Shown: piece by piece, positions 3,379 through 45,041 of the stretch | Layout of the letters: the number at the start of each line of letters is the position of its first letter | Position numbering within the stretch: the stretch's first letter is position 1 | NCBI GenBank assembly: GCA_023954375.1 | Contig: JAMLIC010000045.1 | Location: forward strand, 1 to 64,000 | Direction: 5' to 3' | DNA length: 64,000 bases | From: Planctomycetota bacterium | GTDB lineage: Bacteria; Planctomycetota; J058 | Program-made: the position numbers and the translations under genes | Notes under the pieces: model-generated | What the model saw: the letters and a program-made list of their open reading frames with translations, nothing else | Databases searched by the model: none | Told to the model about the DNA's origin: nothing

Positions 3379-3749
3379 CCGAGTCCCCCGCGCCGTGGCC
3401 ACGCGCAAGTGCAAGCAGCGGATCGGTTGGCGCGGCTCCGAGGAGCCGGACCCCCGCGACCGCTGGCTGGACCGTCGTTGCGAGCGGGAGATTCCCCACC
3501 TCTCGCGCCGACGCAAGTGCAGCCTACGTGAAGCTTGGCGCGGCTCCGAGGAGCCGGCCTCTCCCAGCGGCGCTCTCCAGGACACGACGCGCCGAGGGTG
3601 ACGGTGCAGACCGGTGACACCCGCGTCACCTCGGAGGATCGCCCCGCGGCGGGGACCTTTCCCCGGCGAGGTTTCGGCGGCTGTCCTCGCGCTACCGGGA
3701 AGTAACGATCGGCTCCGTCCGTGCTCCCGCCCGGGGGGAGGTGAGCACC
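3379..3749. repeat. intergenic region with two copies of a short hairpin repeat
   Basis: This gap of about 370 bases has no convincing gene. It holds two similar copies, at 3403-3449 and 3511-3556. Each begins GCAAGTGCA and ends in GGCGCGGCTCCGAGGAGCCG, with about 20 variable bases between. The end contains a perfect inverted repeat, CGGCTCC-GA-GGAGCCG (3433-3448 in the first copy). The repeat lies downstream of the ATP-grasp gene and upstream of the dehydrogenase gene, so it could end transcription or be a small REP-like element. The rest of the gap presumably holds the promoter of the dehydrogenase gene, which I could not define. Confidence 0.65.
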
Positions 3750-5816
3750 GTGAAGCGTGTTGTCGTCATCGCGCGCGGGGCCGTCGTGGCCCTGCAGCTG
3801 GTCCTCGTCGTCGTGGCCGTGCTCCTCGCGTCGTCCGCCGCGCCGAGGTTCAACATCACGCCCCTGCCCCACCTGAAGAACGCCGCCCTCTCGGGCGCCG
3901 ACCTGGCGACCGTCCTGGGCGTGTTCCTCGGCTGGCATCTCGCCGGCTCCCTGGCCGCGCTCGCCTGGTTCCGCCGCCCCGCCTTCGACGACGCGCGCCG
4001 GGCCCTCGCCGAGCTCTACGTCGTCCTGATCGCCACCAGCCTGGCGAGCCTGCACCTGTTCGTCCTGACGATCGTGCCCTTCAGCGCCAACTTCCACGCG
4101 TTCGTCTACCTGTTCGCGCCGGCCCTCCACGTCGCGGCCTTCGCAGGGTTCGCCCTGCATCGGCCGGGCGCCGCGCCGACGCTGCGCGCGCGCGCGCGGC
4201 AGGTGCCGGGGCGGGTGAAGGGCCTCGCGGCCAGCCGCTGGACGGCGCTCACCTGCGCGCTCGTCGTCAGCCCGGGCGCGATGGCGGTCCTCTACAAGAA
4301 GAGCGGCGACTTCGCGAACCTCGTCAACAACATCCGCGTGACGCTGAACCACCGCGGCGACTCGCGCTGGGCCCTCGCCGAGGCCGTGCCGGGCCTCACG
4401 CTCGACCAGCCCATGGACGTGCGCTTCGCGCCGGGCCGGCCGACGCTCATGTTCGTCCTCGAGCGGCCCGGGCGCCTGGTGCGCGTCGACCTCGACCGCG
4501 ACCCGGCGCGCGAGGTGGTCCTCGACATCGCGGACGAGGTCGGGCCGGCGACGGTCGAGAACGGGGCGCTCTCGTTCGCGCTCCACCCCGAGTTCGGCCG
4601 CGACGGCTCGCCCAACGCCGGGTTCGTCTACGTCTACTACACCCACAGCCGGCCGGACGCGCTGAACAACCGCCTGGCGCGCTTCGACCTGTCGGCGGCG
4701 GACGTCGGCGCCTCGCGCCTCCTCCTCGTCGACCAGGGGCGCCCGCCCAACGGCTTCCACAACGGCGGGAGCGTCTTCTTCGACCGCGACGGCCTCCTCT
4801 ACTGGTCGTGCGGCGACTTCGGCGCGCGCCACGCGCAGCGCCTCGACCAGGGCCTCGGCGGCGGCGTGTTCAGGATCGACGTCGACCGCCGCGGCGGCGA
4901 CGTGAGCGGGCCGATCCTCCGCCAGCCGGAGGACGGCGCGACCGCCCACTACTTCATCCCGAGGTCGAACCCCTGGGCAGGCAGCCCCGACCGCCTGGGC
5001 GAGTTCCTGGCGCTCGGCCTGCGCAACCCGTTCCGCGTGTCGCTCGACGGCGACGACCTGTGGGTCGGCGACGTGGGCTGGGACGGCTGGGAGGAGGTCA
5101 CGCGCCTGCGGCCCGGCGACAACGGCCAGTGGCCCTACCGCGAGGGGCCGGTCGAGACGATCTACCCGCGGCCCGACGAGGTGATCGGCCGCGAGGCGCC
5201 CCCGGTGCACGCCTACGCCCAGACGGCCGTCGACCGGGCGGTGATCGGCGGCGTCGTCTACCGCGGCGACCGCTACCCGGCCCTGCGCGGCCGCTACGTG
5301 TTCGCCGACAACAACTCGGGGATCGTGCGCGCGCTCGACCCGGCGCACCCGGAGCGGCCGCCCGAGGCGCTCACGCGCGCCCCGTTCCTCGGCCAGCAGG
5401 GGATCACGTCGATCCACGTCGCGCCCGACGGCTCGATCCTCTTCACCGTCCTCGGCAGCAAGGCCGCGCCAAGCGGCGCGCTCCTGCGGCTCGGCGGCGC
5501 CGACGACGCGGTGACCGCCGCCGCCGACCCCGGCCCGGCGACCGGCGGCGTGGCGGGGAAGTACGAGGCGGTGTGCGCGCGCTGCCACGGCATCGACGGG
5601 CGCGGCGAGGCGTCGCTCGGCGCGGGCGTGGCCCCGCGCCCCGACTTCACCGACCCGGCGTGGCAGGCGCTGCGGACCGACGACGAGCTGCGGCGCGTCG
5701 TCCTCGAGGGCGGCGCGGCCGCGGGCAAGAGCCGCGACATGCCGGCGTGGCAGGGCTTCTTCGACGACGACGAGATGGACGCCCTGATCGAGCTCATCCG
5801 CGGCTTCTCGCCTTAG
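3750..5816 (+). CDS. membrane-anchored glucose/sorbosone dehydrogenase-like protein fused to cytochrome c
   Basis: The N-terminal 150 residues hold about four membrane helices (for example ALQLVLVVVAVLLASS and ALHVAAFAGFALH). A PQQ-dependent sugar dehydrogenase-type beta-propeller follows, recognisable from FALHPEF, GFHNGGSVFFDRDG, LGLRNPFRVSLD, VGDVGWDGWEEV and FADNNSG. The C-terminus is a small cytochrome c domain with the haem motif CARCH and a likely methionine ligand in SRDMPAWQGF. It probably oxidises a sugar or aldose-like substrate in the periplasm and passes electrons to its own haem. A GTG at 3741 is also in frame, but the strong GGGGGGAGGTGA ribosome-binding site favours the GTG at 3750. 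Confidence 0.85.
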   Translation: MKRVVVIARGAVVALQLVLVVVAVLLASSAAPRFNITPLPHLKNAALSGADLATVLGVFLGWHLAGSLAALAWFRRPAFDDARRALAELYVVLIATSLASLHLFVLTIVPFSANFHAFVYLFAPALHVAAFAGFALHRPGAAPTLRARARQVPGRVKGLAASRWTALTCALVVSPGAMAVLYKKSGDFANLVNNIRVTLNHRGDSRWALAEAVPGLTLDQPMDVRFAPGRPTLMFVLERPGRLVRVDLDRDPAREVVLDIADEVGPATVENGALSFALHPEFGRDGSPNAGFVYVYYTHSRPDALNNRLARFDLSAADVGASRLLLVDQGRPPNGFHNGGSVFFDRDGLLYWSCGDFGARHAQRLDQGLGGGVFRIDVDRRGGDVSGPILRQPEDGATAHYFIPRSNPWAGSPDRLGEFLALGLRNPFRVSLDGDDLWVGDVGWDGWEEVTRLRPGDNGQWPYREGPVETIYPRPDEVIGREAPPVHAYAQTAVDRAVIGGVVYRGDRYPALRGRYVFADNNSGIVRALDPAHPERPPEALTRAPFLGQQGITSIHVAPDGSILFTVLGSKAAPSGALLRLGGADDAVTAAADPGPATGGVAGKYEAVCARCHGIDGRGEASLGAGVAPRPDFTDPAWQALRTDDELRRVVLEGGAAAGKSRDMPAWQGFFDDDEMDALIELIRGFSP

Positions 5817-6178: not shown

Positions 6179-6958
6179 CTACCCTAGCCCTCGCTGGGCG
6201 AGGTGCTCCTGCAGCCGCTGCCCGGCCGCGGCCAGGTGCGGGTGCGCCGCGAAGGCCTCGGCCAGGCGGCGCGCGTCGTCGGCGCAGGCGGCGTCGGGCG
6301 AGAGCTCGACGGGGAGGAGCTGCAGCTGGGCGACGAGCAGGGCGGTCGCCTCGTCGAAGAGCTGCGGGTGGGCGCCGACGAGGTCGGCGCCGGTGAGGAC
6401 GGCGCGGGCGAGGTGGCGCCAGCGCTCCTGCGCGGCCTCGTCCTCGTCGACGAAGCCGGCGAGGAACGCCTGGGCCAGCTCGCCGAGCAGCGCCGGCGCG
6501 CGCCCGCCGTGGGTCCCCTCCAGGGCCGCCTCGAGCGGGGCGGCGAAGCCGTCGGGGTCGCGCTTGTGGAGCCGGGCGCCGGCCGGGCCCAGGCGCTCGA
6601 GGGGCGCGACGAGCGCCGGCCAGGGGGCGTTCGCGCCGGCGGGGTAGGCGGCGAGGTGCTCGGCGAGCCCCTCCTCGGCGGCGAGCCCCTGCACCTGCGC
6701 CGTGCGGAACGGGTCCGGGTCGACGAGGAGCCCCGCGTCCCAGGCCTTCACGACCAGCCGGCCGGGCTCGACCTGCAGCCAGAGGGCGGCGCCGCGCTCG
6801 CCGTCGTTGACCTCGACCCGGTGGAGCCCCGGCGGCAGCCCGATCACGCCGGCGATCTCCAGCAGGCTCTTGCGCTGCACGCGCACGCGCGCGAGGTCGA
6901 CCCGCAAGGTCCCTCGCGGCGCATCGAGCACGACGACGGCGCTGACGCCCCGGCCCAC
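6179..6958 (-). CDS. AAR2-like protein (relative of eukaryotic splicing factor AAR2)
   Basis: The 259-residue product matches the two-domain plan of AAR2, the chaperone of the spliceosomal Prp8/U5 particle in eukaryotes. The N-terminal part has VVVLDAPRGTLRVDL, GLPPGLHRVEV and WLQVEPGRLVVKAW, corresponding to the beta domain with its proline-rich IPPGLH turn. The C-terminal helical part has LLGELAQAFLAGFVDEDEAA, ERWRHLARAVL, HPQLFDEATALLVAQLQLLP and a final AGQRLQEHLAQRGL, in the same order as in AAR2. I compared these with AAR2 from memory, not by a search. The start is the GTG at 6958 behind GAGGGGGAG. Since bacteria lack a spliceosome, its partner is unknown. It is divergent from the glycosyltransferase gene. 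Confidence 0.75.
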   Translation of the reverse strand: MGRGVSAVVVLDAPRGTLRVDLARVRVQRKSLLEIAGVIGLPPGLHRVEVNDGERGAALWLQVEPGRLVVKAWDAGLLVDPDPFRTAQVQGLAAEEGLAEHLAAYPAGANAPWPALVAPLERLGPAGARLHKRDPDGFAAPLEAALEGTHGGRAPALLGELAQAFLAGFVDEDEAAQERWRHLARAVLTGADLVGAHPQLFDEATALLVAQLQLLPVELSPDAACADDARRLAEAFAAHPHLAAAGQRLQEHLAQRGLG

Positions 6959-7064
6959 GGCAACTCCCCCTCGAGCGGTCGTCCGGCCGCGCGAGGGCAC
7001 GAAGATCGCCGCTCGCCCGGCGGCTGGCAAGCACGGTCCGGCCGGGGCGGGTTCCAATGGCCGC

Positions 7065-8078
7065 GTGGCCAGCCCCCCGCCCACGAGCGTGCTCCTCCCC
7101 GTGCGCGACGCCGCGGCCACGATCGACGCCGCGCTGGCGAGCGTGCGCGCGCAGACCGACCCCGACCTCGAGGTCGTCGTCGTCGACGACGGCTCGACCG
7201 ACGGCACGGCGGAGCGCCTGGCGGCGCACGCGGCCGAGGACGCGCGCGTGCGGGTCCTGCGCCGCGAGGGCCCGGGCGACCTCGTGGCCGCGCTCGAGGT
7301 CGGCCGGCGCGCGGCGAGGGGGCGGCTCCTCCTGCGCATGGACGCCGACGACGTGAGCGAGCCGACGCGCCTGGCGCGCTGCCGGGCGCTCCTCGACGAC
7401 GACCCGGGGCTCGCGGTGGCGTCGTGCCTCGTGCGCTCGTTCCCCGAGGGCGAGGTGCGCGAGGGGCGGCGGCGCTACGACGCGTGGCTCAACGCCCTCG
7501 TCGACCACGAGGCGATGGCGCGCGAGCGCTTCGTCGAGAGCCCGGTGGCGCACCCGTCGGTCCTGCTGCGCGCCGACGCGCTCGCCGCCGTCGGCGGCTA
7601 CCGCGACCCCGGCGGGCCCGAGGACTACGACCTGTGGCTGCGCCTGTTCGCCGCCGGGGCCCGCTTCGCCAAGGTGCCCGAGGTGCTGCTCCACTGGCGC
7701 GAGGGGCCTCTTCGCGCGTCGCGCCGCGACTCGCGCTACGGACCCGACGGCATGGCGCGGGTGCGCGCCCTCGCGCTCGCGGGCGCGCTCGCCGGGCGGC
7801 CGGCGGCGATCGTCGGCGCGGGCACGGCCGGGCGCCGCCTGGCGCGCCACCTGCTCGCGGCCGGCGCCCGCGTCACCTGCTTCCTCGAGGTCGACCCGAA
7901 GAAGGTCGGCCGCGCCCCGCGGGGGATCCCGGTCCTCGCCCACGAGGAGGGCCTCGCCCGCCGCGGCGACGCCGTCGTCGTGTCGGCCGTGAACGCCTGG
8001 GGCGCCCGCGAGCGGGTGCGGGACCTCCTCGCCCGGCAGGGCTTGGTCGAGGGCACGGACTTCTACCTGGCCGGCTGA
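7065..8078 (+). CDS. family 2 glycosyltransferase with C-terminal Rossmann-like domain
   Basis: The first 240 residues are a GT-A glycosyltransferase. SVLLPVRDAAATI opens the fold and VVVVDDGSTDGT binds the nucleotide sugar. MDADD is the metal-binding DxD motif, and GGPEDYDLWLRL is the typical ED-containing acceptor loop. The last 95 residues (AAIVGAGTAGRRLARHLL and on) resemble a nucleotide-binding domain like the N-terminus of sugar acetyltransferases, an uncommon partner here. It should transfer a sugar from a nucleotide donor at the cytoplasmic face of the membrane. The GTG at 7065 is the best start because sequence upstream lacks coding character. Confidence 0.85.
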   Translation: MASPPPTSVLLPVRDAAATIDAALASVRAQTDPDLEVVVVDDGSTDGTAERLAAHAAEDARVRVLRREGPGDLVAALEVGRRAARGRLLLRMDADDVSEPTRLARCRALLDDDPGLAVASCLVRSFPEGEVREGRRRYDAWLNALVDHEAMARERFVESPVAHPSVLLRADALAAVGGYRDPGGPEDYDLWLRLFAAGARFAKVPEVLLHWREGPLRASRRDSRYGPDGMARVRALALAGALAGRPAAIVGAGTAGRRLARHLLAAGARVTCFLEVDPKKVGRAPRGIPVLAHEEGLARRGDAVVVSAVNAWGARERVRDLLARQGLVEGTDFYLAG

Positions 8079-43523: not shown

Positions 43524-45041
43524 TCAGGGGGCGGGCGGCGGGGGCGCGCCGCCCCCGGCGAGCAGGTCGAGCAGGCGCTCGCTGACCGCCTGCCGGGGGA
43601 TCCCGGCCAGCTGCGCGATCTCCATCACGCGGCGCTGCTCGTTGTGGTCGAGGCAGCCGTCGGCGGCCACGACCTCGAGCATCGCGTCGAGGAGGAGCCG
43701 CTGCTCCGCCGGGTTCTTGCTCAGGTCGAGCTTCTCGCCGCGCGCGCCCTCGGCCTCGAGCGCGGCGGCCTCCGCCTGGTCGAGGAGGAGCTGCTGGCGC
43801 TGCGCCTCCAGCGCCTCGCGCTCGCGCGGGTCGACCTCGCCGTCGCAGTGGGCGAGGTGGCAGAGGATCCGGTAGATCCGCCGCCGCCCGGCCGGCGTGA
43901 CCTCGCCCGCGATCCGCGTCGTGTCGGGGACCATCGACGGCTTCGTGGCGCTCCGCGCCGAACCGACCACGGCGTCGAGGTTGCGCCGCGCCCGCGCCCA
44001 GTCGTCGCGCTCGCCGAAGCACGTCACCTCGAGCGCGTGGTCCTCCCAGGGGAGGAGGAACGAGGCCGAGTAGGTCTCGTGGCCCCCGACCGGCCCGCCG
44101 ACGGGCCCGCCGATCGCCGCCTCGTGCTCGGCGAACACGCCCGCCTTGCCGCCGAGCGTCGTCGCCTCGAGCCGCGGGCCCTGGAGCAGGCGCGCCTGGG
44201 CCCAGGCGACGTGCTGCTGCACGAGCCGCCCGGCGGCCTCGACCGAGCGGCCGGCCTCGGGGTGCTCGGGCTGGCGGCAGACGGTGAGGAAGGTGACCCG
44301 CTTCTCGAAGGTGACCCGGCGGAAGAGCTGCCCGTGCTTGAGGCGCCCCTGGTCGGCGGCGAGGAAGCCCGGCGGGAGGTCGAAGGCGAGCGCGTCGAGG
44401 ACGACGCGCCGCGACGGCGCGACCGGCTCGGGCTCGAGGCGCCGGGCGCCCACGCGCAGCGCCTCCAGCGCCGCCCGGACCCGGCTCAGCGGGTGATCGG
44501 GGGACGCCGCGTCGTGCTCGGGGGCGTCCGTCGGCAGGGCCAGGAGCAGCCGCTCGGGCCACGCGGCGGGCGCGAACCCCGCCCTGGCGGCGGCCGGCTC
44601 GGGCTGGAAGCCGTACGGGTCGGCCCCGCTCGCCGGGTCGCGCCCCGCGTCGCGGGCCAGGGCCTCGGCGCCGCCGGTCGCCACGACGCTCACCGCCAGG
44701 TGCCCCTGACTCGTGGGCACGAGCGCGCGCCCCACGACGACCAGGCCGGGCCCGTCCGTCGCCGGCTCCTTCGTGATCCCCACGACGCCGAGCGTCGGGT
44801 GGAGCTCGCAGGCGAGCAGCCCGCCCCCGCGGGCCGCCGCGATCAGCCGCAGGTCGAGGCGGTAGTCGTCGAGCAGCGCCGGGTCGACGATCACCTGCTC
44901 GGGCAGGTGCGAGACGAGCACCAGCGCCCCGTCAGGCGCGCGCCACACGGCGGCCAGGACCTCGTCCTGCACCTGCCGCCAGCCGTCGGGGACGGTCAGG
45001 CGCACGCCGAAGGTGCCGTCGATCACCTTGGGCTGGGTCAC
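43524..45041 (-). CDS. protein with C-terminal TerB-like domain
   Basis: From the GTG at 45041 behind GAGGAGGCG, the product is 505 residues. The first 370 residues contain two similar-looking alpha-beta blocks (FGVRLTVPDGWRQVQDEVLA and LDALAFDLPPGFLAADQG) that I cannot name. The C-terminal 120 residues (IYRILCHLAHCDGEVDPRER, LLLDAMLEVVAADGCLDHNE) match the TerB helical domain with its acidic metal-binding residues. TerB-like domains occur in tellurite-resistance and membrane-stress systems. No other ter genes are present, so the role is open. No signal peptide is seen. Confidence 0.75.
   Translation of the reverse strand: MTQPKVIDGTFGVRLTVPDGWRQVQDEVLAAVWRAPDGALVLVSHLPEQVIVDPALLDDYRLDLRLIAAARGGGLLACELHPTLGVVGITKEPATDGPGLVVVGRALVPTSQGHLAVSVVATGGAEALARDAGRDPASGADPYGFQPEPAAARAGFAPAAWPERLLLALPTDAPEHDAASPDHPLSRVRAALEALRVGARRLEPEPVAPSRRVVLDALAFDLPPGFLAADQGRLKHGQLFRRVTFEKRVTFLTVCRQPEHPEAGRSVEAAGRLVQQHVAWAQARLLQGPRLEATTLGGKAGVFAEHEAAIGGPVGGPVGGHETYSASFLLPWEDHALEVTCFGERDDWARARRNLDAVVGSARSATKPSMVPDTTRIAGEVTPAGRRRIYRILCHLAHCDGEVDPREREALEAQRQQLLLDQAEAAALEAEGARGEKLDLSKNPAEQRLLLDAMLEVVAADGCLDHNEQRRVMEIAQLAGIPRQAVSERLLDLLAGGGAPPPPAP

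Follow-up and report, generated by a model that had tools for sequence, protein, structure and literature searches.

The window, i.e. the whole stretch of 64,000 nucleotides that was analysed, comes from a planctomycete genome of 10.1 Mb (G000), where it lies on a 67-kb contig. Its minus strand carries a gene for a bacterial relative of the eukaryotic protein AAR2, with the following features:

6179..6958, minus strand: solo AAR2 gene, 259 aa, GTG start at 6958, stop codon at 6179-6181
6964..6970, minus strand: GGGGGAG, a putative ribosome-binding site judged from sequence, 5 nt ahead of the GTG
6722..6943, minus strand: N-terminal beta domain (AAR2_1st), residues 6-79, delimited by DSSP of the model (Pfam PF20981 below cut-off)
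6821..6835, minus strand: PPGLH motif, residues 42-46 (human AAR2 has P-P-G-I-H at the equivalent place)
6194..6712, minus strand: all-helical C-terminal AAR2 domain, residues 83-255, taken from the model (Pfam PF05282 at residues 142-228)
6503..6514, minus strand: THGG loop (T-H-x-G), residues 149-152, taken from alignments

The gene is surrounded by bacterial neighbours, with a sugar-dehydrogenase/cytochrome c gene (3741-5816, plus strand) on one flank and a divergent glycosyltransferase gene (about 7065-8078, plus strand), followed by a kelch-repeat gene, on the other. Compared with its same-genus counterpart it shows 88% DNA identity, with 16, 17 and 60 mismatches at codon positions 1, 2 and 3. 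Since dN is 0.071 and dS 0.318, we consider it a selected protein-coding gene; the dN/dS ratio of about 0.22, obtained for both AAR2 copies, indicates purifying selection and, together with a third-position GC of 0.99, supports coding on the minus strand. Elsewhere in the window, at 43527-45041 (minus strand), a 505-aa protein is encoded whose C-terminal TerB domain is about 50% identical to the AAR2-fused TerB of relatives, while a Pfam search with the remainder of this protein gave no match.

Identity of the encoded protein

The sequence-only reading of the window had ascribed the plan of AAR2 to this protein on the basis of short motifs, and all of these are present on the minus strand in the order proposed: LDAPRGT, GLPPGLHRVEV, LQVEPGRLVVKAW, LLGELAQAFL, ERWRHLARA and LVAQLQLLP. 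The ascription was borne out by both profiles and structure. Pfam PF05282 matched the window protein with E 3e-8 and 34.2 bits (cut-off 23.6), while none of 14 control genomes contained a match to this model. For PF20981 the window protein alone scored weakly, 17.2 bits, under the cut-off of 23.6, and paralogues from the same genome and family scored above it (45.5, 47.9 and 40.3 bits). Searching PDB sequences with the single protein by phmmer returned one weak match, human AAR2 (E 0.037). A family profile made from an alignment of ten planctomycete AAR2 sequences recovered human AAR2 with E 3.1e-20, both domains in order and 38.5 bits for the N-terminal region, and after addition of two cyanobacterial sequences it reached human AAR2 with E 3.7e-24 and yeast Aar2 with E of about 2e-6.

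The AlphaFold2 model of the window protein had a mean pLDDT of 89.6 and pTM of 0.87, and the top eleven matches found by Foldseek in the PDB were all Aar2 (E 1e-9 to 1e-3). The TerB-fused type was modelled separately, with a pLDDT of 79.4 overall and values below 50 confined to the linker and the first residues; its top eleven PDB matches were again Aar2 structures (human E 3.6e-11). The profile match is thus significant and the predicted fold Aar2-like, and we regard it as practically certain that the window protein is a two-domain AAR2 homologue. The beta domain was also considered as a relative of PEGA, and this was rejected after hhalign comparison with PEGA domains of the same genome (probability below 1%). 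In both models a chain of the RtkS-PpkA complex (PDB 9K1U) was matched weakly (E 0.03 and 0.1); judging from the models, this match appears to fall on the AAR2 beta domain (6722-6943, minus strand) and could hint at the origin of that domain.

Distribution, paralogues and TerB fusions

The family profile found AAR2 in six of the seven genomes of one planctomycete family and in no other planctomycete genome searched (392 genomes in all). A Pfam hit in another planctomycete (L011) was discarded as spurious, having two internal stops and not being recovered by the family profile. Among public records, the Planctomycetota MAGs ACE_PLA31, HKST-UBA89, RX1_metabat.bin.42 and NORP233 are named relatives. 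No AAR2 was detected in scans of viral contigs or in phage records, and the PADLOC anti-phage defence models gave no hits on the window protein; the PADLOC model PDC-S48 matched weakly, within the TerB part of a fusion.

Five of the six AAR2-bearing genomes have two copies, which in the genome of the window lie on contigs 56 and 26. Three solo copies, the one described here included, form one group in the tree (support 93/91), and the remaining eight have TerB upstream of AAR2. Such fusions occur in every AAR2-bearing genome of the family, the window's own among them, and the three fused copies that also carry a TPR-like tail have two TerB domains each. The TerB part exceeds the TerB cut-off in most paralogues and weakly matches the co-chaperone DjlA. 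One copy (G005) that seemed to be devoid of TerB is split by an apparent frameshift, which places both TerB domains upstream in another frame.

Gene surroundings of AAR2 differ between the planctomycete genera. In G002 (L051, position 2016) the start of the solo AAR2 gene overlaps the stop of the upstream gene, an arrangement that suggests a coupled operon, as read from the sequence; the upstream product looks LURP-one/scramblase-like by eye, with no match in Pfam or NCBIfam.

Possible relation to contractile injection systems

A tblastn search over plasmids yielded one record, pOSC7112.04 of the cyanobacterium Oscillatoria nigro-viridis PCC 7112. Here the gene order is: eCIS_core protein, AAR2, a 159-aa protein, a second AAR2, a YbjN-domain protein, gp25, baseplate J and a P2 I-like tail protein. 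One AAR2 (WP_015211848.1) is annotated as 'AAR2 pre-mRNA splicing protein'; the second (WP_190274485.1, NC_019764.1 42339-43133) is annotated as hypothetical, and its N-terminal domain scores 52.4 bits, above the cut-off. Proteins with DUF4157/eCIS_core are eCIS cargo or proposed helpers of cargo loading or chaperoning (PMC8213781, PMC11297309).

The planctomycete family likewise possesses an injection-system cluster, consisting of two sheath genes, a tube gene, CIS_tube-LysM and an AAA ATPase. Sheath and eCIS_core matches occur together in six of the seven genomes, five of them with AAR2, and no sheath was found in three other genomes of the order. No such cluster was found around the window AAR2 or the planctomycete paralogues, this arrangement being true of the Oscillatoria pair alone; in the genome of the window the cluster lies on contig 105 and eCIS_core on contig 57, both unlinked to AAR2. 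Two incomplete genomes break the correlation, G004 with AAR2 and no sheath or eCIS_core match, and G003 with sheath and eCIS_core and no AAR2 match.

The contig 105 cluster (L094, L095) is contractile-injection-like, is kept in most family genomes and contains two distinct sheath genes separated by 3.9 kb. The contig 57 gene (L085:11604-15734) encodes a 1377-aa protein with three eCIS_core domains outside any injection cluster, and multi-copy ORFs of this kind are found also in G002, G003 and G006.

Proposed function and alternative explanations

TerB is a scaffold domain, present also in the co-chaperone DjlA. From the combined analyses, the likeliest role of the window AAR2 is that of a soluble adaptor for protein binding or of a chaperone in assembly, a reading that we hold about as readily as we doubt it; the term chaperone is taken by analogy from the eukaryotic protein. 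We infer binding of a client protein by AAR2 and, for the TerB part, a role in its localisation or regulation. The client would be held by a body made of the beta domain (PPGLH) and the helical domain, in the way Aar2 holds Prp8 in eukaryotes; in the sister proteins this body is tethered to one or two TerB domains by a low-confidence, probably flexible linker, some of them adding the TPR-like tail, and the copy in the window is the free-standing paralogue of the tethered form.

As to the client, the single lead comes from the cyanobacterium and points, tentatively, to eCIS_core-type cargo of contractile injection systems. The corresponding explanation is that AAR2 works for these systems as a chaperone of their cargo or an adaptor in its loading; it would bind the eCIS_core (DUF4157) leader and keep the cargo loadable just as Aar2 guards Prp8 from premature assembly. 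The position of the Oscillatoria pair directly downstream of an eCIS_core protein and inside a gp25/baseplate cluster agrees with it, and so does the co-occurrence within the family set beside the sheathless genomes of the same order; nevertheless, physical linkage is seen at one locus, and because AAR2 is unlinked in planctomycetes and the two incomplete genomes are mismatched, we keep this explanation among the unlikely ones. A broader scenario makes bacterial AAR2 a chaperone that holds cargo (in cyanobacteria, contractile-injection cargo of eCIS_core type), from which spliceosomal AAR2 was recruited and which planctomycetes elaborated independently into their TerB-fused forms; as a whole it seems to us quite improbable. 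Service of AAR2 in FHA or serine/threonine-kinase signalling is highly doubtful. At three independent loci TerB-AAR2 does have an FHA protein as its direct neighbour or two genes away (kinase-FHA in G006, FHA in G004 and FHA-GAF-cyclase in G000/G001), and phosphorylation controls eukaryotic AAR2; but where each genome gives at least 120-150 FHA matches such neighbours are common by chance (p about 0.01, a rough estimate before feature choice), and the position of the eukaryotic phospho-serine has no conserved Ser in bacteria. FHA domains are very numerous in the family genomes in general, from 121 to at least 150 matches in each.

The sequence-only reading had named as a tempting partner a reverse transcriptase of group II introns, to which the Prp8 core is related, while remarking that none is encoded in the window. 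The remark is correct, the contig having no RVT_1 match, and the genome-wide search that it proposed did yield such proteins, with ten RVT_1 and five maturase-domain matches in the genome of the window. Prp8-like proteins, by contrast, did not appear, as Prp8 domain IV (PF12134) had no match in the seven family genomes, nor in any control genome, so that this result comes without a positive control. The partnership itself was not supported: maturase domains occur in three of the seven family genomes, being absent from four of the six that bear AAR2 and present in the one free of it, a comparison limited by the fragmented assemblies. Moreover, the contacts known for AAR2 lie mainly with the RNase H-like domain of Prp8 (in yeast also with its Jab1/MPN-like domain) rather than with the RT, and the window protein has no counterpart of the human binding tail (366-377, PMC9629490). 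We therefore find a group II partner extremely unlikely. The five maturase-domain matches (G000 contigs 1, 13, 39, 50 and 91) score the same or almost the same, which to judge by sequence looks like the trace of an intron that multiplied recently.

Origin of the bacterial AAR2

Two origins had been offered for the gene, a fold older than the spliceosome and a transfer. The planctomycete and cyanobacterial proteins split from human and yeast AAR2 with support 99/97 in a tree whose eukaryotes are these two and which contains no Asgard sequences, so that neither root nor direction is fixed by it; the paralogue types within the family were anciently separated. This split, the old paralogue types and the domain fusions speak against a recent eukaryotic gift, and of the two offered origins a recent transfer is disfavoured. 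The patchy spread, confined to one family of the phylum, would fit a recent uptake of a eukaryotic gene by planctomycetes, or a contaminated assembly. Both are very unlikely, given that third positions are GC-rich, that bacterial genes surround AAR2 on the 67-kb contig and that it is present in six separate assemblies; in addition, acquisition is opposed by the inclusion of cyanobacterial copies in the split, by TerB fusions on old paralogue types and by a bacterial T-H-x-G signature that human AAR2 is missing.

The bacterial family with its solo and TerB-fused paralogues and the cyanobacterial pair beside an injection cargo gene provide concrete candidates for the ancestral AAR2 partner, so that the role which AAR2 had before splicing can be tested directly in biochemical experiments. 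What is new and testable are the TerB fusions of planctomycetes and the injection-system surroundings of AAR2 in the cyanobacterium.

Comparison with known systems

AAR2 in bacteria had been presented as unexpected, which it is not: besides the annotated Oscillatoria gene, prokaryotic AAR2 was described from Lokiarchaeota, Gerdarchaeota and Limnospira maxima in the main text of Vosseberg et al. 2023 (PMC9887622), where AAR2 stands out as the only protein of the spliceosome to have a one-to-one orthologue in prokaryotes. Prokaryotic AAR2 as such is not new. As described there, those proteins reach the PF05282 gathering score, like the window protein, a comparison that goes by description rather than by sequence; that main text makes no mention of planctomycetes or TerB fusions. 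Our literature search, in which PMC9887622 was covered by its main text, found no paper on TerB joined to AAR2 and no relevant one on planctomycete or injection-system AAR2, and the planctomycete radiation into solo and TerB-fused types is new as far as this search showed.

The Oscillatoria proteins resemble the window protein in being solo, two-domain and equipped with the T-H-x-G loop, at 27-32% identity to the planctomycete sequences, and differ in their tandem position inside a contractile-injection cluster, whereas the window AAR2 stands alone. Most fused paralogues share with DjlA-type proteins the TerB domain (PF05099, DUF533), which forms their N-terminal part; they have no J domain, TerB being joined to AAR2 instead.

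In eukaryotes AAR2/Aar2p is a U5 snRNP assembly factor that holds Prp8 (PDB 7PJH, 3SBT, 4I43). Human AAR2 requires its tail (366-377) and Met230 for binding to the RNase H-like domain of PRPF8, with Ile225 and Met230 making up a conserved core of the interface, and is switched at Ser284, equivalent to position 253 in yeast (PMC9629490). By alignment, the window protein stops about 11 residues before that tail, and the other copies, solo and fused, end at the last helix or with a TPR-like extension. In our reading of the alignments Met230 is not kept in bacteria, Ile225 corresponds to a hydrophobic Leu/Val, and no conserved Ser occurs at or next to the phosphosite position (human 284, yeast 253). 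The T-H-x-G loop, nearly invariant in the aligned bacterial proteins, is not found in human AAR2; TerB/TPR fusions likewise set the bacterial proteins apart, and bacteria have no spliceosome. It is highly probable that the window AAR2 does not act in splicing, and the existence of a bacterial relative with TerB-joined sisters argues that AAR2 in bacteria must have another, putative job. The proteins are nevertheless alike in their two domains, in the order of these and in the predicted fold. Bacterial and human AAR2 are about 18-25% identical, similar to human and yeast (24%, PMC9629490), and the residues kept are those of the helical core and the FRG..PPG[LI]H stretch, the N-terminal segment that makes no contact with the RNase H-like domain in either the human or the yeast complex (PMC9629490).
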